Shown piece after piece: positions 16,368-64,000 of a DNA stretch of 64,000 nucleotides. Source of the DNA: Ptychodera flava (taxonomy: Eukaryota; Hemichordata; Enteropneusta; Ptychoderidae); the NCBI RefSeq assembly GCF_041260155.1, contig NC_091938.1, forward strand, positions 13,850,719 to 13,914,718, in the 5' to 3' direction. Below the pieces are notes generated by a model. That model had not been told where the DNA came from and did no database searches. It worked only from the letters and a program-made list of their open reading frames with translations. The translations under genes and the position numbers were made by a program. Position 1 is the first letter of the stretch, and every line of letters begins with the position of its first letter.

Positions 16368-18563
16368 TCATTCTATAAACATTTTCAAGCAACAATTCTC
16401 ACTGTCAACAACAACTATTTTCAATGGTTCCCCACCGATGACTCCCAGACCTACAGGATATTTTAACCCCTCTCCGATTCCCATGGTAGCCAAGACGTTA
16501 CCATGGAAGTCATATTTGATAATGCTATTATTGTTGCATACATAGACATATTCATTGTAAACAACAATGCCCTTCTCTGCCCCACGTACATCACCTTCCT
16601 TACATGTTCTACCAAATCTGTTCAAATATTTGCCATGATCGTGAAACACCTGAATGTAACCTTCTCCGGTGTTCTTGTTGACAGCGAGTATCATTCCTGT
16701 TCTACTAATGGCGATCGAAGAAATAGCACTGAATATATCTTTTATTGAAAATGAACTGACATAAGACCCATCCTTTGCAAAAACCTTTATCTTTTGAGAA
16801 AAAAGAACTCTATCTACAACGTACACATCTCCAGTAAGTGGGTGGACCGCAATGTACACTGGATTACTTAACTTTCCCTGACCAAAACAATCTTTCAAAT
16901 TTCCATCCATATCACTGACAACTACCTGTTTATTGCCCTCGTCTAAACTATAGTATAAGTGGTTTTCATCCGAAACAGCAACATCTATTGGTTTGAAAGG
17001 ATTCCTGAAATGTGTGTATTCTATGATTTTCTTACAGTTACCATCCGTGTCAAGTACTTGCAATCTGTTATTCCTATAGTCAGCCGTCACTATGTCACCA
17101 TCCCTGTTAATACTAACACCTCGTGGATCGGAGAGCTCCCCCTTCTTAGTGCCCTTTCTCCCTAGTCTCTTCGCAAACCCCTTCATGACAGGGACTTCCA
17201 ATGGTGTATCAACAATCGGCTCGTCGTTTATCAGTGCACTTATTATGTATGTCCCATCCATACTTGTTCGATATTGTAATCTGTAGGTACCATCTCTGTT
17301 GTCATAGACTTTCACGTCTTGTGATGATCCGGCTGGTTCCGTTACAGTGACTCTGACTTTTCCACTTGTGATCACCCGTTTCCCTCTTGAATTTCTTGTT
17401 GTTATCACCAAGTCAATAGTCTCTCCCTTCATAACCTTCTTAGGGATATTCTCTACTGTGCACTGAGAAGGACACGCATCACTCGCCAGCTGCCCCAGTA
17501 CACAGTTTGCATCTCCCTCTGCAGGCTTGAAAAGCACAAGTTCAGGCTGGAAGGGATGTCTTGGTTCTGAAAGGAGTATTTTTCTGATTTGTCGACTGAT
17601 TTCTTGTTTTGTAGAAAGCAGCTGAGCAGCATTTTCATTTGAAATAAGCCTCTTCAAGTAACTTGAGGTGCTGCTGATCAACTCTAGCTCCATTTCTATC
17701 TCACTGATATTGGCGTCAACTCCTTTTAATTGAAAGTCATACAGCTTCTTTAATTCATCTGCGAGAGTCTCTTCTTCGCGTTTGACCTGCTGCATGACTT
17801 TCTTAGCCCTAGATCTCAATTGCTCTCCAGCCTCGTAGTCTCTTTTCTGTAGTAGAGTGCGAGCCTGCATGGAGGCTGATCTGATTTTCCGAGCTCCGTG
17901 TTCTTTCAGTTCCAACTGGCTGAGCATTCTTTCCAAGTCGCCAAGGTACTCGTCCGCGGCATTGTGCAAGTCTCTGTGTACATGTTGTGGTATGCGATGA
18001 TTATTCATCGTACAATCAATGCAGACAGGTACCTGGCAAGTGTCACAAAAGGATCGCATCTCCTTCTCGGGATGTACGTCACAGTACGGTAGCTGGTCTG
18101 TCAGGTTTGGTGCGCAAGGGTACTCTTGTTCCGAAAACTCACCAATAGATAGGATTTGGTGGGATCCTGACGCTGCAGTATCTTTGTGGATTTTTACGCA
18201 AGGCTGACACAAATATTGCGAGCATTCTACACACCTCATTACTGCATCAGTTTCTTCACAGCTTTCACACTTCGCGTGTTTTCCTTTCATTCTTGCCTGG
18301 AATTCTTCAATGAGACCAGCCATGAAAAAATTGCTTTCCAGCGCTTGCACTCCACCATGAGGAATTGGACATGGCGCTTTACAAGTTGGGCAATTTAGAG
18401 CACCTTGATTCTCCACCAAAGTGAATAGGCACTGCTCACAATATGTATGCAAGCAGGGAAGACTTTTGGGATTGGTGTATCTTTCAAAACAAATGACGCA
18501 AGAAAGGAAATCCTTTCCAATCTGGTCTAGAACTTTCCCAACACTCGAATTTGCAGCTGCCAT
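16368..18563 (-). CDS. Intronless TRIM-NHL protein, copy 3
   Basis: 731 aa from the ATG at 18563, with no intron. It has a C3HC4 RING at 22-61, B-box 1 near 97-125 (CESCEETDAVMRCVEC), B-box 2 (CDVHPEKEMRSFCDTC), a coiled coil rich in LQL, EE and KK, a filamin-type domain with DNRDGTYR, and six NHL repeats ending NCCLKMFIE. All RING and B-box ligands are present. It resembles copy 2 in the C-terminal NHL part (for example IVVYNEYVYVCNNNS) and copy 1 in the coiled coil (YLGDLERMLSQLELKEH), a mosaic that hints at gene conversion. Predicted E3 ubiquitin ligase with unknown substrate. Confidence 0.93.
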   Translation of the reverse strand: MAAANSSVGKVLDQIGKDFLSCVICFERYTNPKSLPCLHTYCEQCLFTLVENQGALNCPTCKAPCPIPHGGVQALESNFFMAGLIEEFQARMKGKHAKCESCEETDAVMRCVECSQYLCQPCVKIHKDTAASGSHQILSIGEFSEQEYPCAPNLTDQLPYCDVHPEKEMRSFCDTCQVPVCIDCTMNNHRIPQHVHRDLHNAADEYLGDLERMLSQLELKEHGARKIRSASMQARTLLQKRDYEAGEQLRSRAKKVMQQVKREEETLADELKKLYDFQLKGVDANISEIEMELELISSTSSYLKRLISNENAAQLLSTKQEISRQIRKILLSEPRHPFQPELVLFKPAEGDANCVLGQLASDACPSQCTVENIPKKVMKGETIDLVITTRNSRGKRVITSGKVRVTVTEPAGSSQDVKVYDNRDGTYRLQYRTSMDGTYIISALINDEPIVDTPLEVPVMKGFAKRLGRKGTKKGELSDPRGVSINRDGDIVTADYRNNRLQVLDTDGNCKKIIEYTHFRNPFKPIDVAVSDENHLYYSLDEGNKQVVVSDMDGNLKDCFGQGKLSNPVYIAVHPLTGDVYVVDRVLFSQKIKVFAKDGSYVSSFSIKDIFSAISSIAISRTGMILAVNKNTGEGYIQVFHDHGKYLNRFGRTCKEGDVRGAEKGIVVYNEYVYVCNNNSIIKYDFHGNVLATMGIGEGLKYPVGLGVIGGEPLKIVVVDSENCCLKMFIE

Positions 18564-20689
18564 GGTGCTACCGTGACTTGTTTAAACTTGTCAACCAGCT
18601 CGTAATGTTATAAAGGTCCTCCAGGTCAATTTACTTAGATGAGATGAGATCAAAATAGAAACAGATAAGATAAGTTACTTTGCATGATATCTTTATACAT
18701 ATGTAGCATACGATTAGTCAGTTGTGGCAGATAATTGATCATAGAGTTGACGTTTGTGCGTACATTGAATTTCCAATTTGCCCTGAAGCTGTTAACTTCA
18801 AAGTTTGAAAAAAATTATAGGAAAGTTCGTTTGTTCGTGAACTTGAATTGCCATAAACCCAGAGTAAGACAGCTCTTCTTTCACTTGAGATTGTGTTCTT
18901 AATTTGTATATTGATGCAGCATACCATTCAAGTATAGTTGCTTGTGATAAGGTATTGTGCCGGGCAGCCCCTGCTACGGCATAAAAGTCACACGAAAACA
19001 CCTCACTGCGATACACACATTGCTAAGTTTGGAAACTAATATCACTCACAAAAAGGCCTTTTCAATAAATCAGCATCAATGGCTCCCATTTTGTGTTTAC
19101 ATTCATACCTGATGTCTTTCTTTGCAAGACAGAGACTACACTTGAAAGTATAGCGATGATGGCATTAGTATAAATCACAATTTAAATATATCAACTGAAG
19201 GTGCGCTCTTGGTAGATGGCAAATCTTATGATATTAACATTTTTGGTGATAACCTTTACATATACTAAGTTTAAAAGTGCTGGGTAAATAAGACAATAAT
19301 GAAGGCGTACATCATTTATATATTTCAAAAATTAATGTCATAAATGAATCATTAAATAGAGTTGTGACATCGATTTCTTCCTCCTTACAGTAAAAAAGGT
19401 TCACTCCCCAAAAAGTCGAAGAAACAGACCATTCTCTAAGCTAATACCCTGTTACTGTTGACGTGTCAGGCCTTAACTCACCGCAGGTTAGCTGGTAGCC
19501 ATTTCCAGATGGTTATTTTTTAAGTGTCATTTGGAGATTCGGAATAGCTTGAATGGCCATGTGAGAGCTAATAGAATATATTTAGCTGTACAAGTTGAAT
19601 ACTATAAAGCTACCTGGCAATTGCGACACCGTACCCTACTCAATGAGGAGTCATGCTTTCTAGAGAATCGCCCAGGGTGTGGGTTCTGACCTGAAACGGT
19701 CTCGAGTGATTTGTAGAGGTTGATTGGAACCACTGCTTTACTATTTATATTCGGTAGTATCCATGCCATGCGACATTTTATCGGAGAGATACTCCCTCAA
19801 TGTGCACCCAAGGATGTAAAGTGAGTGTGTTCTTGCATTAAAACGTGGAGGACACACTGAAGTATTTACTCCTTATAGCAAAGAAAGCATCTATTTATGG
19901 CATACGTTGGATTGTATATGAAATTTTTAGCAAGCATCATTTGTTAATATGCTTGTGAACCAATAAACAAAAACAGCTCTTTTTTGACAAACAAACATGA
20001 AAATAAATACAACTCTTTATTGATGCTTTTGAACAAATCATATGGATCAAATAAACCAACTCGCAAACAAACAAGCACAGAGCCATAATATTATATAGGG
20101 CTCAGCCCTTGGTGTCGCGCCAGGGTTAAGATTGGCAATGTTATTTGTAATGATTCATGATAAACTGTAATTGTTACTTCATAAACGTTTATATGACAAC
20201 TACGCCCAGTTTTCCCTCTGATGAAAGCAGTTCACGTACGTACACGACGTCAAACCCTGCAGCAGGGCAGGTATAGATTTTCTGTAGCGTGTACAAATTT
20301 TGGACAAAAATTGGCAATTTTTACAATGATTACAGCCTATTGCGTTAAACAAGGGACGTATTATGCAATCACTATCATTGCAATGGTAACCGCACTGCCC
20401 ACCTTCCACTTGCAAGCTGAAAACTATAGCGTCCGTCTAAAAACTGACAATTTTTGAATCTAATTATTGACACAGGGGGCGCTCTTCTATAATTCCATCC
20501 CAGCATTCTTTGCGTATGCCACCGTTCATATGCACGACAGTTTTCTCCCTTTATCTATATTAACGATATTTTGTATCAGCGACAAGGTGCATAATAACAT
20601 TTACTGGCTAATAAGAGAGGTATATTTTATAAAAGGCATGTTATATAATAGTAATTTGTTTCGTATTTGTTTATTTACGAGTACTCAAT
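18564..20689. other. Gene-free spacer
   Basis: I see no exon or RNA gene. A few short open frames lack coding character or splice partners. Confidence 0.4.
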
Positions 20690-26489: not shown

Positions 26490-28111
26490 TTACAAGACAT
26501 ACACTTTGATGCAGTGGTTTCCCTTGTCAGCAACAACCAGTTTCTTTGGTGAAGTGCGAGTGACAACGATTCCAGATGGATATGAGAGTCCATCGTTGCG
26601 ACTGTCAATCCGACAGACGAAATCCCCCGTGCTGCTTAATTTCATGATTCGGTGCTCGTCACAGACGTAAATATATCCGTCCTCATCCACAGCCACCCCT
26701 CTTGGGTTGTTGAAAAGCGGGACTTTACCGATATCCCGAATCTTGCGTAAATATCTAGAATTGGAGTCAAAGACTTTGACGCCCTGGTAGTCGAGGACCG
26801 TTTTATCCGTAACGTACAGAATGCCCTCGCTGTTGAAGCAGCAGTCGGTTGGCTTTCCTCTGAACTTGATGGATCTGGCGAAGCTTCCGTCTTGTGAGTA
26901 GATTCGTATGTACGAGTTGTTGTACGCCCTGTCCGTTACATACACAGAGCCATCGAGAGGGCTGATGGCGATTGCCTTCGGCTTCTTGAGTTCATTCTGT
27001 CCGAAACATCTGATTCGATGCCCGTTTTCGTCGCTGACGATAACTTGCTTGTTGTTGACATCGAGGCTGAACAGCAGGTTATCGGACACCGCCACATCAC
27101 AGGGGCAGAAACACTTTATTGAGAAGTGACCGGAACTGAAAGATCTTTTGACAGTTCCCATCCCAGTCAATCACCTGCACTCTCTTGTTCCCTCGGTCAG
27201 CGGTGACGATGTTTCCATCCCTGTTAATTGTAATTCCCCAGGGTCATTGAACTGACCTTCCCCAAAGCCGAATGTGCCCAATCTCTTGACCAGTCCCTTG
27301 ACCACTGAAATTTAAACGGTGACCCGGGGATTGGCTTACCAGCCATGGTGATCTCCAGTCTATACTTGCCTTCAGTTTCTCCATACACTGTCAAAGTCTG
27401 CGTGCCATTTCTGTTATCAACTGCTTGAATGATATCTGCGGGTCTGTCGGGGGTTTGTAACTTTGCTACAACTTCCACGAGGGGCGTGACCACTTTACCT
27501 TCTGGATTCCTGATTGTCATTATGAGGTTCACCGACTCCCTTTCATGAGCTGATCGGGCACGTTTTTAACGCTCACTTTGTACTTGGACGCATTCACATC
27601 CGATTTCAACGATCCCAGCATTCCCAGCTCCGAGAAGTCCTCCTTGGCCTTGAAGATCAACAAGTCCTCGCCGGTCTGCAGCTTGATATCCAGGGAAATC
27701 AACTGCTCCATACACTTCATGGTCACCTGCTGGGTCGACAACAGCTTATTGGTGTTACCGTGACACATCATCGTTTCTACGTAACTAGACGTACTCGCGA
27801 TATCACTTCGCACTTTCTCCATCTTCACAATGTAATCCTGCAGTATCTTCTCCTTTGGCTCATAGTTTGCATTCAGCTCGGCCAGAACCCTCTCCTTCTC
27901 ATTTGCCACTTTCATCATCACCTCTTCGGCCATGTCCTCCACTTTGTCTTCTTCCTCCCTCAGTTTCTCCTCAAGGTCTGACTTTATCATCTCCGCCGAA
28001 GTGATGCTGTCGCAGATTTCCTGCTCTTTCATCTTCAATTCCTTCATCTTCACCTGGAGCAGATCCAGGTAGTCTTCTGATGTATCCCATGAGTCATATT
28101 CTATTCTCGAT
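26490..28111 (-). pseudogene. Second exon of a fourth TRIM-NHL gene (coiled coil, filamin-type, NHL) with broken frame
   Basis: The exon starts at 28111 after ttatttttcag and encodes a coiled coil rich in KMKE and EEKLREEEDK, a filamin-type domain (about 27530-27300; DNRNGTQTLTVYGETEGKY) and six NHL repeats ending GNHCIKVYVL. The translation is interrupted four times: near 27535 (a G missing from a GGGG-type run, between QLMKG and ESVNLIMT), near 27306 (before VVKGLVKRLG), near 27240 (NDP to GITINRDG) and near 27140 (after CQKIFQF). Between these sites all frames stay clearly homologous to the neighbours. Three of the four are one-base losses, mostly at G/C runs, so consensus errors are as likely as true decay. 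Its GC content is visibly higher than in the three intronless copies. Confidence 0.8.
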
Positions 28112-31100: not shown

Positions 31101-31166
31101 TCACTGTGTGCAAATTCCGCTTGATGTTTATCTAACCACTGCACATATTTCCGTTGTTAATATTAC
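28112..31166 (-). other. Intron of the fourth TRIM-NHL gene
   Basis: The donor at 31166-31165 (AG|GTAATA) and acceptor at 28114-28112 (TTTTCAG|A) join as AG+A in phase 2. I looked for a B-box exon (paired CxxC and CxxH motifs) on the minus strand and saw none. No other gene is visible in this 3.1 kb. Confidence 0.7.
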
Positions 31167-31501
31167 CTTCTGTTGGTCATCTCTTCTTTGTTCTCCACGC
31201 TTTTCTCCGTCATCTTTTCCTTCTCCTCCTTCTGCCTCCTCCGCAGCAAATCCATCAGGTTGTTGATGAAGAAGTTGGTCTGGAGTTGGGAGACGTCACC
31301 CTTGTGCAGCTGAAACGGCTTCCTGCATGTTGGGCACCTGAGGGTCTTATTCTTGGCCACCAGCGGAATCAGACAGTACTCGCAGAACGTGTGGAGACAC
31401 GGCAGGGTTTTCGGAGTTCGGAACTGACTGTAACAAATGGTACAGGTCAGGAAATCCTCTCCGATTTCATCCAGCAGTTGGGTGGATATTCCAGCGGCCA
31501 T
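31167..31501 (-). CDS. First exon of the fourth TRIM-NHL gene: RING domain
   Basis: The ATG is at 31501 (MAAGISTQLLDEIGEDFLTC). A complete C3HC4 RING (CTICYSQFRTPKTLPCLHTF and following CxxC ... CPTC) spans about residues 20-60. A basic/acidic helix (RRRQKEEKEKMTEK) reaches the donor site. Splicing to the exon at 28111 is in phase and gives RING directly followed by coiled coil (about 110 residues, then SRIEYDSWDTSEDYLDLLQ). The result lacks the B-boxes found in the three intronless neighbours. It is a predicted E3 ligase if the downstream frame is intact. Confidence 0.85.
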
Positions 31502-32534
31502 GACAGCCAGGCGCTATGGCTGTGGGTTTTTTTTCCCCAATATTACACTGGGCATGGGTAAATATTAAGTGTTGAACTCTGACCTCGGTCTGTTTACCGA
31601 CTGTTACACACCCATGTTTCAAGTACCCTAGCAAAAGATATAATGCCTGATACCGGGTAATAAAGTACACACTGCACATGCATGACATGCAGGATGCTAC
31701 TATAGTATATGAAACTTTCTAAAGACAGGAAAGACATTTTAAAAATCTTCCTGTGTTTGAAAATGACAAATGTACATGAAACTTTTTTGCTTGTATACTA
31801 CCATTAAAAAAATCTGACAGTAACTGACAGACAAACAAAAACTGACCACTAGTAGTAAAGATACTGTTGACTTGAAAAATAAATATATACACCAATCCTC
31901 CTGAAAACTTCCAAAATTCCTTTTCACACCACAGTGTCTTCTCTGTTAGCAGGAAATACAGTAGATTTGGTGAGGTATATACTCTCAGCCAATTGGATTT
32001 CACGAAACTACTGTCACTTTTTTATTATGCAGGGTGAATGATCTCTCCTATCTTGACAGTGATTAGCTGATTTTATCAACTGGAATCCACTGCTGCTTAT
32101 TACAATACATTGTTTAATTTACAAAAGAACATATATCTCAAATTAGTCAATTGGAATTACAAAGCTTTGAATTGATCAAGCTATACATTTATCTTTTCAA
32201 CTCTGAATCTTGTTTCAGATTCTTGTTTGAAGTGGTTTCAGACAACAATTGTGAAATTTATGACTTTCAAACCTGATTGGGTGAAACTAATAAAACTGGC
32301 AGAATGACCATAAGGTCGACGGCTGTCATTGTCATGACAACCTGGCACCTGAGGTGGCCCCTAACCCCCCTCTGCTCTCAGTGAACTGGTCCACTTCCAT
32401 GGAACTGTGCCAAGAATGTGGTATGGTTACTGTTATCTGCTGATTCACAAATATGGTACGTGGTGTAACTAAGAAGAGGACGAGCTCAGCACTGGTAGAT
32501 GTCTAAATGGGTTTGAGAAGTTACTGTACAATTA

Positions 32535-48904: not shown

Positions 48905-51900
48905 ATGTTCGTCAGGCTCAAGGTGTTGACAATGACATTGAGTCTCTCGTTATGTTGTCATTGCACTTTCGGCGGTGATGTTGGCAGAGGACATATGAAA
49001 CCGTTTGGATTCCAAAGCGACCCTACAGAAACCACAGAAGAGCTTGACTATGTCCCGCACCCTACAGAATTTTACGAAAAGTACGTGAAGCTCCGCAAAC
49101 CCGTCATGTTCAGAGGGGCTGCCACAAAGTCACAGGCGTATCATCTGTGGACGGAGGAATATATCAGGAAAGAGTACGGGAACTTGACCGCACGGATCGA
49201 GGGAAGACACGAAAATGCTACACGGGTCCCGTTGGGCGAAGGTGGTATTTTAGGTCGAGACGCTTTCGATCATTTTATACGCAACTATCAAACAATGGAT
49301 GCATACATGATATCCCAAGTACCGAAGCCAATGGAAAAAGATGTCGCCATACCTCCCTGTCTACTTTGCGGAACTTTTGCCAAGAGTATACAGTATGTAG
49401 ATAGCTGCAGAAGCGATACTTTTAAATTTCGGCGTTTCCTTGTAGCTAGACTTAAGATATGGGAATTTAAAATTTCATCATAGATAAATGTTAGGGTAAG
49501 CCAAAAGGTGATTTATGTGGAGTTCACACGTGTACAAATGTCTTTTAATAGTCACCCTTTCATTTACTTTATTTAACCAAAGTCATTCACAACTTCCTTA
49601 TCAGCTTCATCTCTGAGCAAATTGACTAACTGTGCACTACTTTCAAAGGAGAACAAAGGACTAAAATCACACAAACAGCCAATGCAAACAACCATTAATG
49701 TGAGAACTAGGGACTGAGAACTGCCCCTTTAACATCATGTGCAACCTCCAACTTATGTATTTTGTTTCTCATGAATAATTAGTTTGAGCTTGTTCACCCC
49801 AGTTTCCTGGAAGCAGGTCCAAAATCACCATTGATAACCGTGGGTTTTGGCCAAACTACGGTTGTGAAAGGGTTCAGACCATAATTGACCAGAGTAACGC
49901 GAGTGGGCAAAGGTTGTGGATGTGGTCTGATCATGTGTATCAAAGTCATAGAGATGTCAAAGCTGGAGTGATAACAGCTTTCAGTCTGTCAACAATGATT
50001 ACTTTAACGGTACAGTTGTAATGCATGCTGGTCACTGTTTCAAAAAAGACAGACCATATAAACACAAGAAATTAGGCACAGGTTTATGATGTAACCAGTG
50101 TTACTTGATGAGTGAGCCTTCAGAAATAACTTTACTGACAAATAGCCAAAAGGAAATGTGAGAGAGAAGAAATTACTGAAGTAGCTACACAAGCTCTACA
50201 TAAGGTTAATCAATCATGAATTCTGTCAATTTTAATACAACTAAATTCAACAAGGTATCCTCAAGCTTCACTCATTTCTCAGACCCGTTTCCTTCTCTGT
50301 ATTTTGCATTTACTTTTTTAGAGCATATTCGTAACCTTCATATTGAATTTTGTTGTTTTCTTTATTCCAGGAAGTGCACCTGTTTTATGAGTGCTGGCGG
50401 TGGCAAGACCTTAATTCATAAAGACCTGTATGATAATGTCCACTGTCTCTTCAATGGAACAAAAGAATGGCTGATGATTGATCCAAGTCAGGTTAGTTTT
50501 TATGCAAAAAAATACAACCCAGCAACTTAACAAAAATGAAACACTCATTTTCAAAGAGTTCTACTGTTCAACATAAACATATTAATATTGTGATCAGCTT
50601 CTGCTAAATGCTAGAGCTTTCCACAAGACATGTTCCGGTCTGCTAGAACTGTCATTTTCAAAGTTTCTCTGCCAACAGTCAGAACCTAATCAAATAATTG
50701 AATTTTTTATTTGTATGTTAATTTTATTTGCCATACACTGATGTCCAAGTCTTGTGGATAGGTGTTGAAATCAACTTATTTTATTAGGAAAATTTGCTCA
50801 CTCCAGAATTTGTTATATCAAGCACTATCTTTCAACTAGACAAGTTTGATCAAATATTACTCATTGTCTCATTATATCTAAGAGGGTACAATGTTCTTGT
50901 AACCCTCCCACCCCATTTCTCTAGCTATGTATCCAACTTTGACACAGAGGACAATAGGATTGTGCCAAAGTCTGATGGTAAAAGGGTGAAGTGTAACAAT
51001 GTAGAATACCACAGGTGGTTATTTGTGTGATCTGTGTTTACAATAATATCATGTGACACACAAGCAACTCATGAAGTGTAAAGAATTTCTTAATCAGTTT
51101 TTCATTCAACAATTCATCTTCCATAAGTTCGGAACATTTTAAATATCAATTTTGGTCTTTTTTGTAAACAAACAACTTTTTCTTTTCCTTCAACACAATT
51201 GCAGAGTGACTTGGTGTATTTATCCAGAGACTCTAAGAGAGAGTTTGGTGGCCATGCCATGATTGATGTGGATGCTGTAGATCTCAGAAAGTTCCCCAAA
51301 ATCAAAGATGTGAAATATTCTCATGTGACCATGAACAAAGGAGACTGCATGTACATTCCTAGTGGTAAGAAACCGTTATGATAGAGCAATGGCAATTATT
51401 TGCTTCTGGTGAGATACAGAATGAAGTAACTTTTCTGGTGCTATAGCTGCTGTAATGAACTTCTCAGGGTGTCATTGAAGGCAAAGTGCTTGTAAGGTAT
51501 AAACTTTATCAGCCATGCTTTATTGCAAATCACGTGTAGTTGCTAATGAAGAAAGTGTAAAAACTACAATTTATTGCTAGAGCTGATCTCTTGAATTTTG
51601 ATATTAAAATATCTATTTCCATTGTCAGTTAGGTCTTCTGACTCTTTCATTTTAATATTTATGTATTAAAACTTATAACTGTTGATATTTCTATTTCTTC
51701 CTTGGGGATAGAATATATGTAAGTATGTACTTTTACTATGATAGTGGAAAATCTTTCAAGAATACTTACCTTTTGAAAAAAATGCATGAAGCTCTGCTAT
51801 TTGTTAGTTAATTACCTTTTATAGAGTCCCAGTGTTTATGTTAATGAAGGTTATTTATCAAATTTATTTTTAATGCTGCGTTTGTCATTGTTGTTTTTTG

Positions 51901-54900
51901 ATGGCTCCAATTTTGTTGTGATAAGTTTTTCTAGATATTGTTTACAGTGAGACTTTTCAATCAACCACATAAATGTATCAGATAATACTGGTAATACTCA
52001 TGCATATGTACTGAAAGGGATAGAGAAGATAGGATTTTTTTTACAGTATAGCTTTCCAAACAACCAGATCACACAGGAAACAAATTTATTTGCAAAGCAA
52101 TGCATTCAAAGTATCTATCAAAACATTCCTCAACATCAAAACCAGGAATGCAACCGCGTCGGAAAATTTGCGTGAGTGAACCTTTTCCAGCCATATTTCA
52201 CATAATGGATCAACCTTAAAATTTGAAAAGCAAGGGGAATGTACTAAAGTATTATGATCAGGGTTCAGGACATTCAATTACTGATCTTTACTGGCAATAC
52301 CGTGGTGTTTTCATGAACATGGCTTGTGAAAGCTATGCATAAAGGTCAGCAAGCCACATGTTTTGCCAGTTAGTATAGAGAGCATGGTTCCCCCCCAAAA
52401 ACCCCCAAAAATTGCTGATACAGTTATCATTGGCTGCTTAAAGTACATGTATGGTGGATGATAGGTGCTTCAGTGTTAAAGTAGCTAAGGCAAAATGCGA
52501 GGTGTAATTTACATACTGTTCCAAAGTTTCACATTCTAAAACTGAAATCTTTTCTCCCAATACAGGCCATCTTCATCAAGTGCGGTCTAACGGATACATG
52601 AACACAGGTGTTGCCATATGGTTCTCAGTCTTGACAAAGACGCACAACTTTGATAGCTCTGATTGCGCAGAAATAGAGAATACCAAGCATTCTGGATCTC
52701 TGGACTTCAAACCCATGAATGAAGTTGATGTGATCTGGACATCTGATGGGTATGGGGAAATGCATCAAGGTCACCTGGATATATATTATTTAAAGTAAGC
52801 TGAAGTATTTCAAATTTAGTCGTTCTGAAAAATTTACTTTAGTGCTACAAGCATGATAACTCTATTTACTTTTATCTCCTGCTGTTATAATTTCATTTGA
52901 TTTGCAGATATTAGCGGTAGAAGTGAGACTGCATTAGAATGTAGTTCAGAACAATTAATCTTAGGGTTGGATCATGGATAAAAGTGAAATATTTTAAGGT
53001 AGTATGCGCCTCAAACTTTCCTTAAGAAATCTTTTAACCATTCTCTTTCAAAATGAAGAATAAAAATAGGGGGTCACTGTGCAAATTTTGTTACTGGAGA
53101 AACAAATTACCCAAGATTTATCGATATTTGAAATTCAAAATGGCCGCCATCCCTGTGTTAATTCTATGGACGAAAATAACATTTTCGATTTTCAAAAACT
53201 AAGATGGTAAAAATTTATCTTACACCAAGAGCTTTCAAATGAACCCCCCTGATGAACCCTTTTGACCTTGAGTACATCACAATGAATCAACTGGTTAAAG
53301 TTGATCTTGTTCTGTACACATCTCTTGTGCAATTACAAAGGTGTCATGCATCATAAACATATTTCTTTATTATCATTGGTTCACTGAGAACAAATTCCCG
53401 TAGACACATACAGTGCCGTTGTTACAGTGCGCCATTCTCATATCAGAGAATAAGTGTTGAATCTAAACTTTGAATTGTTTGTTTCTGCGTATAGGACTAT
53501 TTTACTCACCTCGGCAGATGAAGAAGGAAAAATTTGGTTGGAACCATTCACTAATCATTTCCTTCAGGTATGTAGAATGATGTTATGTACAAGATGATTT
53601 GAATGATATTGTACATCATTCAAATGAAAACCGCAGCATATTTTCAAAAACCTACAACCAAAGCCTTTTTGGTTTCAGATGCACTGTACATTGATCAAGT
53701 TTACAATCATACAAAGAATGGCAGACACAGGAGGTTATCTCTTACAGATGCAGTTGACATCCCACAAATAAGCATTTCACCACTGTTACTTCTTCAAAGT
53801 CTTTTGCCTCACTTAGAGGGAGAGAGATGTTATTTTACAAAGTTTTTTAATCTTGGCTAACATTGCGTATTATTAATGACCCAGTGACTAATGTATCTTG
53901 TTCTCTTCAATTGTACCTGAGTAATTTTTCTCTTTTTCAGAGAGGTGATAAAGATGAAGATCATGAAGATGAGGATGATGGTGAAGATGATGATGACGAT
54001 GCTGACTTAGTTCAAAGTATCAGAGAGCAGGTAAAAGCACACATTAGAAACAAACATGGCCACTGGATTTACACAAGTTGAAGTTCTTTAAATTGCAAAC
54101 TTAAATGTGTTCCATGAGAAAGTTATAGAATCAGCCACAAAATAGAATTAAACTTTACTCAGATAAGGTAAGAATTTATCAGCAGTACAAAGTTTGCAGT
54201 GACAGTCAGGTAGGATAAGCATTTTCATGTCCTTCTGACTGTGGCATGATCATAGGAAATCTTATTGTTTGGGATGATGTAACTGTACATATTTATTATT
54301 GAGTACAAGAAATAAGCTGAAGCACTTGATGATATTACAAATAGCTTCTCAATTGTAATACCAGGTGTATATCATAAAAATCCATTATGTTTTTAATTAT
54401 TTCCCATTATTTTTTGCTATGTTTGTAAAGTATAGGTTTATGTTCTACTGAAAAAATCCTGACAAAATGTTTGATATTAAACTGGTCATTTGTGTATAGT
54501 TCCTATTGGCCATTAATAAGTCCAAATAAGAATTCATTTATCAACAATAATATCACATACTGTACATAATGTGTTGTGTTGGCAAGGCTAATATTATGTA
54601 TTTCAACTTACTATATGAGAATGAAAAAAAAAAAAAAATTTTTTAGCTCCGCTGTCAGCGACGCGGAACTTATCAAATAGGTTGATTTTCCGTCGTCGTC
54701 GTCCGTCAACAATTGCCTTCTCCTCTGAAACCGCAAGTCCAATTGCTTTGAAATTTTTTATGCAGTTCACTTGGTGTGACCTCACTTAAGTTTGATCAAA
54801 TCGTGGTGAAATTTGCATATTCGTATTTTTGGGTCATTTTTTGGTGTTTTCGGTAAAAAATCTTCTACTCTGAAACCGCTTGTCGGATTGCTTTGAAATT

Positions 54901-57900
54901 TGATATGCAGTTTACTTAAGGTGACTTCAGTCAGATTTGTTCAAATCGTGGTGAAATTTGCATATTTGTATTTTTAAGGCAATTTTTGTCATTTTTGGTA
55001 AAAATATCTTTAAAATCTTCTTCTTCAAAACTACCAGTCGGATAGCTGCAATAATTGTAGCCCTTGGTTGGTGTGGGGATTGGGCTTCTGTCGTGCGGCT
55101 CGCGCCTTGCCCCAACCAGGGCTACAATTTCTCCCTATACCTGCTAGTGTAAAAGCTGCAGTGCGGGTCTACACTGCATGGTCAAGGCACACACGGGGCC
55201 GCATTATTAGAGAATCTCGCCTTACCGTGTGCAAATTTCACTATAATCCTGCTTCCGGATAATGTTAGAGCCCTTGTAACTCCTATCGATGGTCAACTTT
55301 ACTCCTAGCAGCTGAAAAATGACAGTTTAATGACTCAGGCGCGAAGTCAATTCGAACTGGACCGCCGTCGTTGAACTCTGTACCCAGCCGACTTGTACCA
55401 TTACATTTTAGGGGTGGCCGACAGGTGTGAGTGACAAATGAAAACGGTGGCACTAGCAGTACATTAGCGCGCTAGTGGCAGTATAGTTGTTGTTATTTTA
55501 ACGCTATCTTTTCGGAGGATTGAAAAAGGTCATAGGACCGTTTCCTCCTTTTCAATTACTGCTAGAATACCACTATCGCTGAAAGCAAAGAGAGACCAGT
55601 GACCATTGAAGAACTTGCCATCTTTATTTCCTAAGAAGTGAAAGAGATATTCACGCCATGCAAAGTCTGTCGTCTCGTCTTTGCCATTTTATACAGATGC
55701 TCTGACAACAAGAGGACACCGCAATATAATTATAAAATATCCAATCGATATTTACGGCTACTATACTATACGATATAGATCTCTAAGGCTATAAAATCTT
55801 CGATATATATCGGATATTTACCCGCCTAATTAACAAACTCTATTATCATCTAGTAGCGAAGTTCGAGCCAGACTAGCGCTTGGCCAGAGCTGTAAAGTGG
55901 TGAAATGTCTGACAAATATTCGCGACTCTTTTTAATCTTGAAGCTTATAATGGTACATTTTCCGACTGTTTCAAATGTGCTGAAATAGTTCCGATTCATA
56001 AGGGAGGCTCTAAGAGTGATGTTAACAACTATAGGCCTATCTCCCTTCTACCAGTTCTATCTAAAATACTAGAAAAACATGTTTATATTAGTTTTTACAG
56101 TTTTATGCATTTAATCTTTTTTTGTCACAACTCACAATCATCAGACAACATCACTCTTGTCACATTGCTTTAGTCAAGTTAACTGACCAGGGTCTATACT
56201 TTTACAGAATATAGATGAAGATAATTGTTTTTAGATATACTTAAAGATTTTTTTCATCGTTGATCATAACATTTTGCTGAGCGAACTTTCTGTGTACATG
56301 TTTTCTGATTTGTCACTGAAGTGGTTTCGATCAGACCTTACAGGAAGAAGTCAATGTTAGCTATTTAGGTGTACACGCTCATGTTTTGTCGATTGGTGCG
56401 GTGTATCTCAGGAGTCCATTTTTGGTCCACTTCTGTTTTTGATCATGTTATGTATGTCATTTCCTCCCACACTCATCATGACATGAGTTTAATTAGTCTG
56501 GAACATTCTCAACTTTGTGTAAAAATGGGAAGCTTAGATACTACTACTACTGTGACTACTACTACTACGGTGCTTCAAATTTTATCAGATTTATTCAAAA
56601 ACTGCTGAGGTCAATATCAAAGCATGTATGTAAAACATGCTGATTACAAGGAATTTGTTACAAAAAGAAAGGTGTATCCATGAAAAAGCACAGATGTGAA
56701 AATGATGTAAAGAAATCCTCATACAACCCGGCCTACTACGTCATAAAGATGTATGTTGACAGACAAGAAAATGCCGAAATTTTAAATTGATAAACACTGC
56801 ATTATTGAAGTAGTCATGAGCAAACGGATGGAGGAAGTCCATCTGATTAAAATCAGGTGTAGAGTACGGCGACGTCTTCTTATGCGTACGCGGTCACCTC
56901 TCGCTGTCGCCTCTCACTACGCGACAGCGAGAGAATACCGCGTACGCATAAGAAGACGTCGCCGTACTCTACATCTGATTTTAATCAGATTGGAGGAAGT
57001 CGTTGCTATATTAGGCTATTTCCATACTGAGTTCATCATGCACACTGTAAAGTTCACTATGGTTTGAAGCGAGACTACATAAATGTCATGTGAGAAAATT
57101 AACCTGGAATGTAATCCGCGTTTGTGTAATGAGTTAAGAAATGCTACGACCGTACAAAAACAGTAAAATACCTACGTGTGATAGCAAAGTATTTGGCAAA
57201 GCTGCACTATCGGCGATTTCCCAGACCCGGCGTGCCGTGGCACAAGGCTAGTCATTTTAGTATCGTCTAGAGTCCGGATAAATATTCTGTAAGTATAGGC
57301 GATTTCACAGACGCAGAGTGCTGAGTCCAGTGTCGATCGGCGATTTCACAGTAATCCCGAAATCGTCGATATGTCAAACTTTGATACTAGATGGAAAATA
57401 TCCGATTTAAAAAAAAAATGTTCAAAGTCACGCCGTCATGTACAAGAATGCCGTTTTGGCATCCCACTTCACACATTGTGACCTTTTTAGTCGAACAGAT
57501 TTTGCTTGGAACCACTCTTTCCGCATTGAACAACAGCGGCATCTTGTTAATGTAGTTTGTACCATGGAGGTGGATGGTTGAACTTAGTTGTGAAAGTTGA
57601 ACTAGTTATGGAGTTTAACTTAGGCACACGCCTCTGAACAATGTGCATGGACACGTTGTTCTAACTGCTTCAAATGACCCGCTCCCGTGTAGGATTTATT
57701 GAACTAGTACGTAACTTATTTGAGAAAGTTGGGAAGATAGAGCACAGGATTTATTGAACTAATCAAAATGAGTAGTTGAACTTCAGCAAAAGTATCTCTC
57801 TTTATTCACCAAGAGTTATATATTGTCATGAAATTACCCACCCCTTTCAATCCCGTAAGCTAGTCCTACGAGTATGGCAAGAGTGTCGGCTTTGGCTCCG

Positions 57901-60900
57901 GAGGCATGCAGTGTAGGGCTCGTAGGGCTACCCGTAAGCATGCTCATTCAGCTCCCTCACACCTGTCGGCCACCCCTAAAATGTAATGGTACAAGTCGGC
58001 TGGGTACAGAGTTCAACGACGGCGGTCCAGTTCGAATTGACTTCGCGCCTGAGTCATTAAACTGTCATTTTTCAGCTGCAAGGAGTAAAGTTGACCATCG
58101 ATAGGAGTTACAAGGGCTCTAACATTATCCGGAAGCAGGATTATAGTGAAATTTGCACACGGTAAGGCGAGATTCTCTAATAATGCGGCCCTGTGTGTGC
58201 CTTGACCATGCAGTGTAGACCCGCACTGCAGCTTTTACACTAGAAGGTATAGGGAGAAATTGTAGCCCTGGTTGGGGCAAGGCGCGAGCCGCACGACAGA
58301 AGCCCAATCCCCACACCAACCAAGGGCTACAATTATTGCAGCTACCAGTCGGATAGCTTTGATATAGATGCACTAAGTAATATATATTGAATTTCTGATG
58401 AAATCTGTAATTTTGTATTTTTGGGGCAATTTTTGCCATTTTTGGTCAAAAAATGTGTATTTCCAAAACTACTAATCTGATAGCTTTGCAATTTGGTATA
58501 CAGGTTCCTACAGATTATCTTAATAATATTTATTGAAATTATGATGAAATCTGCAATTTTGAATTTTTGGGGCAATTTTTGCCATTTTTGGTCAAAAAAT
58601 GTGTATTTCCAAAACTACTCATCTGATAGCTTTGAAATTTGGTATACAGGTTTCTCTAGATGAACTAAATGATGTTTATTGAAATTATGATGAAATCTGC
58701 AATTTTGAATTTTTGGGGCAATTTTTTCCATTTTTGGTCAAAAAATGTGTTTCTCAAAAAGTACTGGTCTAACAGCTTTGAAATTTGGTATACAGGTTTC
58801 TATAGATGAACTAAATTTGATCTTTTGAAATTATGATGAAATCTGCAATTTTTATTTTTGGGGGCAATTGTTGCCATTTTTGGTCAGAAAATTTTGTTCT
58901 CAAAAAACTATTCATCAGATAACTTTGGTTCTTAGGGATGATCCGCTGTGATATATTCAAAGTATGATGAAATCTTCAAATGTGTATTTTTGCAGCTGGT
59001 TTTGCCACTTTTTACTGGCCACTGCATTAAGCTATCAAAGATTTCGACCTCCTTAGTCAACATGTGTCAAAAATAGTTATTCTCTATAAAACACAGCGGA
59101 GCTATATCGGCCGCTAGGTCGCTTGTTTACAGATAAAAATTAATGAGAATATTATCAGAAGTTATAGACACTATGGCCAAGAAAACTAAAAAGGTTGTTT
59201 CTCATCCTCGTGCGCCTCAATTCAGCCCTGCCGCGTCAACCTTTTTTTTCTGCTCATGAGGAAATAAAATGAAAAAAATAAATGCAAAAATGCGCAACGA
59301 TAGTGCATAACACAGTGCTGTATAACACAGTGCTGTATACAAAATAACTGACACTAACATTCCATTCAGAGCTGTACACATATGTCAATGTTATATTAAG
59401 CTGTCAAAACTGCATTGCTGCACTAAAAGTCAAACCGCAGAAATGTTGCTACAGTGTATACAAAAATATTAAAGCAACACTGCTGTGCATTTATCTCTGC
59501 GTGCATTCCTATGTTGTTTTCATGTTTTTTGCTTGTTCTTGTTGGTTGAAGAAAAAAAAATTGAAAGGAAAAAAACAGCGTCACCGCATCATTTCTTGCA
59601 ATATGTCTAAGATGAGAAATAAACTTTTTATTTTTCTTGGCCTAATGGTGTAATTTGTATATTGTGCATGTACTACCGTAGACTGTTCACAAGAATAGAA
59701 TGCATAGGAAATGCTTTAGGTGTATAGCCATAACAGATAAGCATATAGCGATCACCAGTGTTTTGTATCTTCTTAGTTCAAACATCTGCTTGACCCAGAG
59801 GGTAGAGGTTATGTTACCAAGGAAGAGGTCAGCTCACTGACTGTCGACCAATTGAAGGAACTACTTTTGACCTTTGACCACAATGATGTTTCAAATTCCT
59901 TGGAATATGAATATGGTTATATCTCTGCAGAGGAAATCACGTGAGTGTTGCCCTTGTATGTTTACGCAGCAGTTAATAAATTAGCTGTTTTGCCAGGAAA
60001 AGGGTTTGTTTCAAGAGAAGCTGCATTCATTTCCATTTCAAAAAATTCCATTTGCAAAGATTGCCCGTGAACCAAATGTAAGTGGAGTGCATAAATGCAC
60101 TGTACGTGTCATGCAGTTCTGAACAGTAAATTTCAAGTGTGCTGAATGTCAGAATTACCACTGCTCTCAAACATCCATGTCCTGTGCTTTCTGTTGTTAG
60201 ATCTATTATGTTAGACCCCCCCCCCCAAAAAAAAAAAACATAAGGAAAAAAAATCACCATAATAAGATGCCATGGGGTTATGTTTAACTGTGGCTTTATT
60301 TGGAAAGTTGTTATGAGAACTATCAAATATATCGACAATTGAGTGAGCAATATATCTGTCATGCAGAAATCAAAGTAACTGCTGGTATAAGCATTAACTC
60401 TGTCACCCAATATGTATCTACAGAACTTCATCTACAGAAAATAAAAACAAAGGTTGTTACAAAATTTGACACTCCAGGGTGACTTAATCATAGTAGAAAA
60501 GTTCATAGAGATAAATCTACCAACAGTGTACTTTCTCATCTTTGTCACTAGATGGCTCTTTCCATTTGATAATTGGTTAATGTTGAGTGCAGCGCCTTCT
60601 GTTACCCTAACCCTACCAGCTTTCATTCCATTGATCCTATTACAGCAATTTGATATCTGGATTATTTGCATTTGATGGTCGCTTCCTTGGAGAAGACTTT
60701 GTGCAGAGCTACATAAAAAATGTGGGTGGCACAGCCCCTAAGGCAGAGGAGGTAAGTAATGTGGGGGGGGGGAGGGGAGGAGGAGAGGTCAACCAACATT
60801 GTGTGACAAACATATACCCCTTCCATAACTTCGTACTGACTTCTTATTGCTATAAAGAATGAGAAAATCATTTTGAAGTTGTAAAGGTTTCCATTCAGTA

Positions 60901-61479
60901 TATGCTTGATTGGAAGTAGCAAGACTACTTGGTGCTTTTAGTTAGGACAAGGTTAATGCAAGGAATCCAACTCAAGTTTGTGATATAGGTCGAATTGTCT
61001 TCCATAAATGCTTGTACAGTCAAAACCAACCATATACCAGTCCATGTCGCAGAAAACACTTGTCAAACATTCTGATCAGGCAAAGGCCACATCAACATTC
61101 AATTTTCTGGAACATTATTGTTGGTTTAAATCTCTTCTGGGTCTTATTAATGTTTGGTACTTCACACAGATTTCACTGTATTTGTATTTCCGTAACATTT
61201 ACATGCACCTTCTGAATTTTACATACATTCAGCTTATTTTAAATGGCATCCTACACTTGTTGCAGGTCTTTAAAGATGCAACTCACCTTTTCATGATTTG
61301 ATAATGCTTTCTTGCAGATTCTGACTGCCCTTGGAGCTAGCAGGGACGATTATGTCACCATGGACATGGTGGATAGGAACCTTGAGCAGGCACTTGCCAA
61401 GTACCGTGAAGGAATACCACACGACTCAACAGTTGAACACTTGATGTTTGAACATCTCGTCAAGCATGATGAGCTCTGA
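48905..61479 (+). CDS. ER-lumen JmjC (cupin) oxygenase with acidic linker, EF-hand-like region and C-terminal HDEL, nine exons
   Basis: Exons: 48905-49392, 50371-50491, 51205-51364, 52566-52794, 53495-53567, 53941-54030, 59777-59940, 60646-60751, 61318-61479. All are GT/AG with matching phases; the CDS is 1593 nt, 530 aa. A signal peptide (MFVRLKVLTMTLSLSL, then CCHC) opens the protein. The JmjC/cupin_8 fold runs to about residue 300. Predicted Fe(II) ligands are H179 and D181 (LIHKD) and H260 (GHLHQV), with a VDAVDL stretch before them in exon 3. Residues 358-387 form an Asp/Glu-rich linker encoded by one exon. A canonical-length EF-hand loop, DPEGRGYVTKEE (393-404), begins a helical C-terminal region. 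The final residues are KHDEL, an ER-retrieval signal of the HDEL type. NLT and NAT sequons fit a luminal protein. JmjC enzymes of this type hydroxylate proteins; the substrate is unknown. JMJD8 is an ER JmjC protein, but as I recall it lacks EF-hands. Confidence 0.88.
52980..53440. repeat. Possible dispersed repeat in JmjC intron 4
   Basis: The block ttcaaaatggccgccatccc with flanking low-complexity aaaatt runs looks unlike the rest of the intron and resembles dispersed repeats of marine invertebrates. There is no second copy in this window, so the call rests on appearance only. Confidence 0.25.
55945..56470 (+). mobile_element. Decayed non-LTR reverse transcriptase fragment
   Basis: An uninterrupted piece reads AEIVPIHKGGSKSDVNNYRP followed by ISLLPVLSKILEK, the classic fingers-region signature of LINE reverse transcriptases. 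After frame changes come RQHHSCHIALVKLTDQ, FFIVDHNILLSEL, LKWFRSDLTGRSQ and GVSQESIFGPLLFLI, in family order. Stops and frameshifts are frequent, and the catalytic YxDD region is not present. It lies inside the foldback element. Confidence 0.85.
56841..56990. mobile_element. 150-bp near-perfect hairpin, a nested MITE-like insertion
   Basis: The arms begin atctgattaaaatcag and end ctgattttaatcagat. The inner arm gtacggcgacgtcttcttat pairs with ataagaagacgtcgccgtac, and further in the gcgacagcgagag motif pairs around a loop of about 10 bases. Direct repeats tggaggaagtc flank both sides (56829-56839 and 56991-57001), an 11-bp candidate target duplication. Confidence 0.88.
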
Positions 61480-62367
61480 GTCTCCAAAAAGTGATAGCAG
61501 CAAATTTGTGTTCATTAGAATGTCTTTCCTATTGTGTAGCCATTATGTATGTCTATTTTGCCAACATTTCACATCAAGGTGACAGGGATGCATGTAAGTC
61601 TAAAGGTAGCTACTGATAATTCAAAGTGACAAAGATGAACTCCTCAGAAGGACTGATATTTGCTCTCATTCCTTAATCCACCATCGGAGAGGACTGAGCG
61701 TACTTCCCAAGGATTTTTTTCAAGTTTACTCTTTAATTCATAAGACAGTGGTAAAAGTATTCAGAATGCTTTGCATATGATTTACTGATGTTTGTATGCA
61801 TTGCTTGCTGAGAGGAAATGGCATTGGTTTTTGTTTTTCAGTCTCTCTTCTCTCATTTTGATAGGCAGGTTTCAAAGGAAAATGTGAAAAAAATTATTGA
61901 ATGGGATAAGTCTATCAGCTGCTAAAAGTTTGTTTTTCCGTGTTTGAATAAAGCGCACTATTGAATTATTTTTAATATTTCAAGGCTTTATTAGGTGTAA
62001 CATTTGATTTTTTGCCATTATCTGTGTTCTGTTTGTAGGTACAGTTTCTTATCCAGCTTCCCCTATCATGTGAAAAACGCCAAAAAGTTGGATATGTCAA
62101 CAAGTGCATTGTTGAATGTTATTGGTGCAAAACTTGTAATCTGGAGTACAACTTGTTTGCCAAAAATAATGTTGCATGTCGTATACAATGTGAAGTGTGA
62201 GCAAGGCAGATATTTTAACAGGTTTTAGAAAAAAATGATAAAGAAAATTTGTTTTGTTAAGCATCAAAAAATGTGATAAACATCTTAGCAAAAGTTACAG
62301 ATATAATCCCATTAGAGAAGATGAAAGGAAGTAATAAAGTACATTCCATTAATCAGCAGGTGTTTTA
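61480..62367 (+). other. 3' untranslated region of the JmjC gene and downstream spacer
   Basis: No further coding exon is visible. The first good polyadenylation signal, aataaa at 61947-61952, lies about 470 bases past the stop codon. Beyond it the sequence is AT-rich without recognisable features. Confidence 0.55.
61947..61952 (+). terminator. Candidate polyadenylation signal of the JmjC gene
   Basis: A canonical AATAAA hexamer on the coding strand, followed within 30-60 bases by T-rich sequence. Confidence 0.5.
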
Positions 62368-63217
62368 AAGTGGCACTCCCACTTGGTAACATTTTTAAAA
62401 CACATTTTTTTAGTGCCATAGGTCGATATTTGACGTGGCGACTGTACATGAATCGCAAGATATCGATAAAAAAATGTCTTCAAAAAAGTAAAAGTTTGAA
62501 TTCCGGTGGCCCACCTAAATTCAGCTTCCGAACATCGAACGTTCGGCACTGGGGCCATTGTCAACTAAGCTATGGAGTACGAGTCTACACTGACGCTGCT
62601 GTACGCCACAGTACCACTTGCCTCGGTGATCGGTCATGCCCCGTGGGAGAAAGCTGAGTCTTACTGACTTGGTGATAAACGAAAACAATTTTGCGGATTC
62701 CACCAGAATTCGCATAGGTGACTAGCCCAGTTACGTGCGGTTGATACATAGCGGCCACCGCGTGGTATGCATAGACGCATACCACGCGCGCGGCGAACCA
62801 CACGTACTGTGTGGCAGACGACAAAATGTAGTCATCGGAGGCGGCTAATATTTAACACGTAAAAACTGATGTTTATGTGGTATTGGTTAAAAATATAATA
62901 CAACTGATTTAGAATAATGAAAACGACAAAAGCTAAGAAGAAGTTTTCAAAAACTGACCTGTGGTAAAGGCATAATGCTGTATATAAAGTCTTCGCAGTG
63001 GGAGGTAAAGTTGCGTCGTTCGAACTTATTATGGACTCCCTAGAATATCGCGTCATGATCAGAAACGATCGTAAAAGTTCGGGATGTGAAAAATACGCTC
63101 GGGAAATGACATGTTTTTATCGATATCTCGCGATCCGCGCGCAGTCGCCACGTCAAATATCGACCGTGGCATTAAAAAAATGTGTTTTAAAAATGTTACC
63201 AAATGGGAGTGCCTCTT
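62368..63217. mobile_element. Nonautonomous DNA transposon with TIRs of about 110 bp and TA target duplication
   Basis: The left end aagtggcactcccacttggt and the inverse of the right end (aagaggcactcccatttggt) match. Homology continues through aacatttttaaaacacattt, ggtcgatatttgacgtggcg and agatatcgataaaaa. TA flanks both sides (62366-62367, 63218-63219). The interior of about 630 bp has no transposase. The TA duplication suggests mobilisation by a Tc1/mariner-like enzyme elsewhere. Confidence 0.82.
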
Positions 63218-64000
63218 TATATTCCATAAATTTTTAGAAAGAAACCAATATTCTTAGGTTTGCTGTCAAGTTCAAGACAAAAAAACTGAATGTTTCTGTT
63301 AATATGCCTGCAGAAACTAGGGTAGGTCAGTGGGAATTTTTTTCATTTTTTGATTTTGTGTTACAGGGTGTGACATATAAAAAAACTGCAACATTTCGCA
63401 AAATTATGATGGATGTTTAAAATATGAAAAAAAGTTGAAAGTCAGAAGGGTTTTAATAGCGTAGGGTATGAAACATATCTATCATTTGGCATTATTGACA
63501 TTAAAAATAGTTTTTTACCAGAGAGCTCTTTCCTCGATGAAAAAACTTGAATGGTTTATGTATCTTGTGGAAGCAAGGGAAACCATTATGGGAAACTGTA
63601 ATAGGCAGCTTTCTTACCAGAATAATTTTGCCTTCATTTCTGGGTAAAATTCAGGCAGCTTCCATACCAGAATATTTTTTCTTCATTTTACAGTAAAATA
63701 TAATTGTAGTAAAACAGACTGTATATATCGTGATCAGACTTCAATATAAAGGTCAAATCAACACCTTTTTGATAGCTCAAAAAGTTAGCATATCATTATA
63801 CAACTCGGTGCAACTGTCAAACTTTCGCATGATGGTCAAAATTTTAAAAATTTGGTGGTCTCCTTTTCTCTACGATTGCATAATGTCAATATTTTATGAA
63901 CACATTTACACAAGATTTGTATATTTTTTGAACAGAGCATAGTAAAATTATTATGTAATGAGGTTGTGTTCTTACCTTGGTATGTGTATCTCAAAGATGT
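63218..64000. other. Gene-free right end of the window
   Basis: No exon is visible. A twofold repeat of about 50 bp occurs at 63603-63700 (ggcagctttcttaccagaat / ggcagcttccataccagaat). Confidence 0.45.

Follow-up and report, generated by a model that had tools for sequence, protein, structure and literature searches.

A predicted JmjC oxygenase of the endoplasmic reticulum lumen with a degenerate EF-hand-like tail and an HDEL terminus in Ptychodera flava

The window analysed here, a 64-kb stretch (64,000 nucleotides) of the genome of the hemichordate Ptychodera flava, carries on its forward strand a nine-exon gene predicted to encode a JmjC-type oxygenase, and on its reverse strand an array of TRIM-type genes. 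The features are given below, with amino-acid (aa) numbers referring to the spliced protein.

317-2542, 5592-7826 and 16368-18581, reverse strand: three long TRIM-type open reading frames, all of which match RING, B-box, filamin and NHL
26490-27170, reverse strand: NHL piece in the TRIM-type gene array
31163-31513, reverse strand: RING piece in the TRIM-type gene array
48905-61479, forward strand: oxygenase gene, nine exons spliced to 530 codons plus a stop
48905-49392, forward strand: exon 1, with the ATG, a signal-peptide-like leader (aa 1 to about 24), the start of the Cupin_8/JmjC domain, C152 and C155
50371-50491, forward strand: exon 2, with C165 and C167, iron-triad residues H179 and D181, and K194
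51205-51364, forward strand: exon 3, JmjC core
52566-52794, forward strand: exon 4, with iron-triad residue H260 and the end of the Cupin_8 match (aa 53-277)
53495-53567, forward strand: exon 5, segment connecting onward from the JmjC domain
53941-54030, forward strand: exon 6, Asp/Glu-rich linker and the beginning of the first EF-like entering helix
54031-59776, forward strand: intron 6 (5746 bases), with a repeat region and a transposon-like insertion adding to its length
59777-59940, forward strand: exon 7, degenerate EF-hand-like pair, DPEGRGYVTKEE (aa 393-404) and GYISAEEI (aa 434-441)
60646-60751, forward strand: exon 8, tail segment
61318-61479, forward strand: exon 9, with DYVTMDMV (aa 488-495) as a possible third EF-like exit motif, C-terminal HDEL and stop
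61947-61952, forward strand: AATAAA, a possible polyadenylation signal, with another at 62333

The nine-exon structure holds as a prediction from the sequence. All eight introns have GT-AG borders and fitting phases, with lengths from the first to the eighth of 978, 713, 1201, 700, 373, 5746, 705 and 566 bases, and in-frame stops lie shortly 5' of the ATG in exon 1 and directly 5' of exon 7. When six frames were compared with a codon-usage score trained on the three long TRIM-like open reading frames within the window, the predicted frame scored best in each of the nine exons. Once joined, exons 6-9 reached a codon score of +0.218; the corresponding mean for 20,000 intronic joins of the same length was -0.275 (standard deviation 0.082, maximum 0.005), and none of these joins was free of stops. 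On such borders, phases and frame scores the assembly proposed in the first-pass annotation is upheld, and the residues and motifs that it singled out, namely H179, D181, H260, DPEGRGYVTKEE (393-404) and HDEL (527-530), all fall where it had placed them. A tblastn comparison within the window revealed no second copy: its strong matches correspond to exons of the gene itself, and its three weakest (E 0.18 and above) to noise or linker. Rfam returned no match above gathering over the whole window, and NCBIfam none up to E 10.

The length of intron 6 (5746 bases, compared with 373-1201 for the other seven) would fit a reading in which two genes have been joined, with exons 1-6 ending as a shorter protein and exons 7-9 derived from another transcript; read-through into the intron would then add 16 residues before a stop 48 bases in. 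A milder form of the same reading is a short isoform of a single gene. Against a second gene, however, phase 0 is preserved across intron 6, the in-frame stop directly 5' of exon 7 implies that this exon needs an upstream one, and the EF-like match begins in exon 6 and spans into exon 7, which raises its score by 1.7 bits, from 17.8 for exon 7 alone to 19.5. The HDEL motif, moreover, is meaningful only together with a leader, and the insertion alone accounts for 3294 of the 5746 bases. We regard the joining of two genes as very improbable, and treat the locus as one gene in what follows.

The transposon-like insertion itself (55047-58340, 3294 bases) has inverted arms of 410 bases that are 98% complementary (55025-55434 and 57953-58362), is flanked by a 17-base direct repeat offset by one base, and looks non-autonomous, since its longest stop-free frame is 93 codons. 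It splits a tandem repeat with a unit of about 146 bases (54717-55004 and 58365-58906) and contains, at 56841-56990, a hairpin of two 70-base arms that are 94% complementary and separated by a 10-base gap.

Both ends of the protein suggest traffic through the endoplasmic reticulum (ER). The N-terminus has a basic start followed by hydrophobic residues, the mean hydropathy peaking at 1.94 over aa 7-18, and the signal peptide annotated at first is supported, by hydropathy only, as a leader-like start. No membrane span was found, in that no 19-residue stretch has a mean hydropathy above 1.4. The C-terminus reads ...EHLVKHDEL followed directly by the stop, which places HDEL at residues 527-530 and at the very end, as had been annotated and as in clients of the KDEL receptor; judged by the triplet frequencies of the window, HDEL would stand at a given end by chance with a probability of about 2.9e-6. 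The position of the leader and HDEL at opposite ends of one reading frame also favours the assignment of exons 1 and 9 to one gene. Three N-glycosylation sequons are present (N93, N104 and N191).

In the catalytic region only cupin/JmjC models of Pfam match. Cupin_8 covers aa 53-277 (E 4.8e-39; 135.2 bits against a cut-off of 27.4; model positions 1-247 of 252), and the JmjC and JmjC_2 models, compared with the whole protein, score under their own cut-offs. In a PDB sequence comparison, JMJD5 chains rank first among solved structures (E 1.3e-10); a chain named GH14974p comes next, and below it stand JMJD7, FIH and C2orf60 (TYW5). The JmjC family divides into small hydroxylases and multi-domain histone demethylases, and the core, whose nearest solved relatives are JMJD5, JMJD7, FIH and TYW5, groups with the small hydroxylases. 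To our knowledge, none of these four is retained in the ER or carries an EF-like tail.

More distant relatives were recovered from plasmids, where a 235-residue JmjC piece matched 17 bacterial records at 21-32% identity; six of the 17 were taken into an alignment with the window protein, among them L006 as its matched stretch only and L002 as a short record. H179, D181, K194 and H260 are invariant in all seven rows and N185 is kept in six, K194 occupying what we take to be the position where FIH binds 2-oxoglutarate (2OG). With the Cupin_8 match and JMJD5 as the nearest solved relative, the invariance of H179, D181 and H260 agrees with the earlier assignment of a putative JmjC oxygenase with an intact iron triad. 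Late in the domain (GVAIWFS), at a position presumably near 2OG in FIH, the window protein has Ala; of the five bacterial relatives that reach this position, four have Asn and one Ser, and the Ala counts as a small point against full activity.

Just 5' of the iron motif lie four cysteines, C152 and C155 (CxxC, 49358-49369) and C165 and C167 (CxC, 50375-50383). They could form disulfides or a metal site, and the aligned bacterial relatives have no Cys at these positions.

JMJD8 is described as a JmjC protein residing in the ER lumen, with data that point to its N-glycosylation (PMC5684140). It resembles the window protein in its JmjC domain and, as predicted for the window protein, in its leader and luminal ER location. 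As presented in that paper, JMJD8 has a JmjC domain only, whereas the window protein adds to an intact triad a tail and HDEL; the main text of the paper contains no mention of KDEL, HDEL or EF-hand (PMC5684140). Human JMJD8 is also reported to have a His in place of the iron-site Asp (PMC5684140), a replacement that is absent from the window protein, where D181 is present. With this reported substitution, the contrast with JMJD8 is stronger than was stated in the first-pass annotation.

That JMJD8 resides in the ER lumen with its iron-site Asp reportedly replaced (PMC5684140), and may serve as a binding platform, lends some appeal to a reading of the window protein as a pseudo-enzyme or chaperone-like ER protein, in which the JmjC fold would be a similar platform and the acidic tail a calcium buffer. 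The Ala found late in the domain, in place of the Asn or Ser of relatives, points the same way. Low-affinity calcium-binding tails are acidic, and the linker of the window protein resembles them. All three iron ligands and K194 are nevertheless kept, invariant with the six aligned bacterial relatives, and we consider a pseudo-enzyme rather improbable; the reading preferred here is an oxygenase with a working active site.

Beyond the catalytic domain, 16 of the 27 residues of the linker (358-384) are acidic, in keeping with its first description as Asp/Glu-rich. Four EF-hand models top the Pfam list for the tail, the best at 22.5 bits and all under their cut-offs. The score of EF-hand_6 (cut-off 25) is 14.7 bits with the whole protein, 19.4 with the 153-residue tail and 22.5 with a 73-residue piece. 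Two loop-exit motifs, GYVTKEEV (398) and GYISAEEI (434), stand 36 residues apart, which is the spacing of an EF-hand pair. Two such motifs occurred in 2 of 20,000 shuffles and a pair at a spacing of 36 +/- 3 in 1 of 20,000, in a test that was devised after both motifs were known and hence overstates significance.

Taken singly, the first loop, DPEGRGYVTKEE, has five of the seven canonical positions, with Glu at position 3 and Arg at position 5; when the tail was shuffled 5000 times, 1705 of the shuffles had at least five canonical positions, so that the single loop is not above chance. The second loop is about 20 residues long, compared with 12 in the canonical calcium loop. When the 73-residue piece was compared with the PDB, 59 of the 60 matches listed (out of 98) bore the names of EF-hand proteins, calmodulin accounting for 51 of these, with a best E of 0.023 among the matches listed and none significant; the 153-residue tail matched four chains up to E 10, two of which are EF-hand proteins. 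Exons 8-9 gave no EF match in Pfam and contain one looser motif only, DYVTMDMV. Single-sequence models built for pieces from exon 7 and from exon 9 were of low confidence (67.6 and 66.3, respectively), and the exon 7 model, at this low confidence, draws the second loop as strands and not as an EF-hand. Judged by its motifs and by the Pfam ranking, the tail appears to be EF-hand-like, a degenerate pair whose loops are without canonical calcium ligands. This supports the EF-hand region of the first-pass annotation in a changed form, with the degenerate pair taking the place of one good canonical loop, and makes real calcium binding by the tail seem doubtful.

From the domain, active-site residues, HDEL and EF-like motifs present in the predicted gene structure we infer ER entry, enzymatic activity, a substrate and a role for the tail. 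The protein is probably a soluble, and probably glycosylated, JmjC Fe(II)/2OG oxygenase of the ER lumen with a docking, weakly calcium-binding tail. The leader would direct the oxygenase into the ER, and HDEL would bring it back from the Golgi via KDEL receptors. The JmjC core, which retains the iron triad together with the 2OG lysine, would most likely hydroxylate side chains of folding secretory or membrane proteins, by analogy with the JMJD5-like and FIH-like enzymes of other compartments. The C-terminal part, made up of acidic linker and degenerate EF-hand pair, would most likely position substrate or partner proteins; low-affinity calcium binding is what the tail would most likely add, a true calcium switch being less likely.

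A stronger form of this explanation, overlapping with it, is a calcium-tuned oxygenase, in which the EF-like pair would bind calcium at ER levels and alter access to, or turnover at, the JmjC site, so that hydroxylation would track the calcium filling of the ER. HDEL would put the protein in a calcium-rich compartment, and the pair of motifs at 36-residue spacing, rare in shuffles as judged by a test devised after the pair had been seen, is consistent with such tuning. There is also a precedent in P4H-TM, described as an ER 2OG dioxygenase with a luminal catalytic domain, a calcium-binding EF domain beside it that is seen calcium-bound, and an ER-retention signal (PMC7948501). On the other side stand the Glu and Arg of loop 1, the length of loop 2, the EF-hand Pfam scores under cut-off, and the report that disruption of the EF-hands of FKBP22 alters neither its isomerase nor its chaperone activity in vitro (PMC10607241). 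Calcium tuning is unproven because the loops lack canonical calcium ligands; the possibility raised in the first annotation has lost ground, and we think it unlikely. An oxygenase with a docking tail is the reading carried forward below.

Among ER proteins with EF-hands and HDEL-type ends, those of the CREC group (reticulocalbins, e.g. RCN1) have several canonical EF-hands and no known catalytic domain, whereas the window protein has a catalytic domain and degenerate EF loops. AspH belongs to a catalytic family that differs from the JmjC core of the window protein. It is described as an ER 2OG oxygenase with a luminal catalytic domain that acts on EGF-like domains, membrane-anchored and with a TPR domain (PMC6817910). 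P4H-TM is of the prolyl 4-hydroxylase type and membrane anchored at its N-terminus (PMC7948501), in contrast to the JmjC type of the window protein and its lack of a membrane-span-like stretch. FKBP22 (FKBP14) joins an enzyme domain to two EF-hands and HDEL, the enzyme as described being a proline isomerase and no oxygenase (PMC10607241).

No description of a protein combining JmjC, EF-hand and ER/HDEL was found in the literature searched, a scope outside which most subscription journals lie; searches of the same literature for Cupin_8 with EF-hand, and for coral JmjC domain-containing proteins with EF-hand, likewise gave no description. Both jumonji and EF-hand occur in two papers that, to judge by their titles, present long lists of proteins or genes (PMC4607824 and PMC5726758). 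The novelty claimed at first is accordingly narrowed: the JmjC version was not found in the literature searched, whereas the parallels in P4H-TM and FKBP22 are already in print (PMC7948501, PMC10607241).

In the literature searched, JMJD8 is the only JmjC protein of the ER to have come up, and its iron site is reportedly altered (PMC5684140). Whether any JmjC enzyme works in the ER lumen is thus a question, which an intact triad combined with HDEL in one protein renders directly testable. Such a protein would also be a second case, separate from P4H-TM, in which a 2OG oxygenase and an EF-hand-type domain have been combined in the ER. That it is the first JmjC oxygenase with an intact iron site to be retained in the ER by HDEL with an EF-hand-derived, calcium-responsive domain is a claim we regard as doubtful; if true, a single modification of secretory proteins would take its inputs from oxygen, 2-oxoglutarate and ER calcium alike, in a design parallel to, and independent of, P4H-TM.

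Relatives were sought in collections of bacteria, archaea and viruses, where absence says nothing about animal orthologues. The whole 530-residue protein gave four pattern stretches in viral contigs, none confirmed, and a 113-residue piece of the JmjC core 33 stretches in prokaryote genome contigs, again with none confirmed. The motif HKD-x-YDN-x-H (x hydrophobic) occurred in neither the viral nor the prokaryote contigs, and the 235-residue JmjC piece that matched plasmid records had no match in phages. An animal orthologue, annotated yet undescribed, is likely.

Elsewhere in the window, the NHL piece (26490-27170) and the RING piece (31163-31513) may be parts of one further TRIM-type gene. 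An element of about 850 bases (62366-63219) lies 3' of the oxygenase gene, with inverted arms of 53 bases at 94% complementarity followed by 58 bases at 88%.
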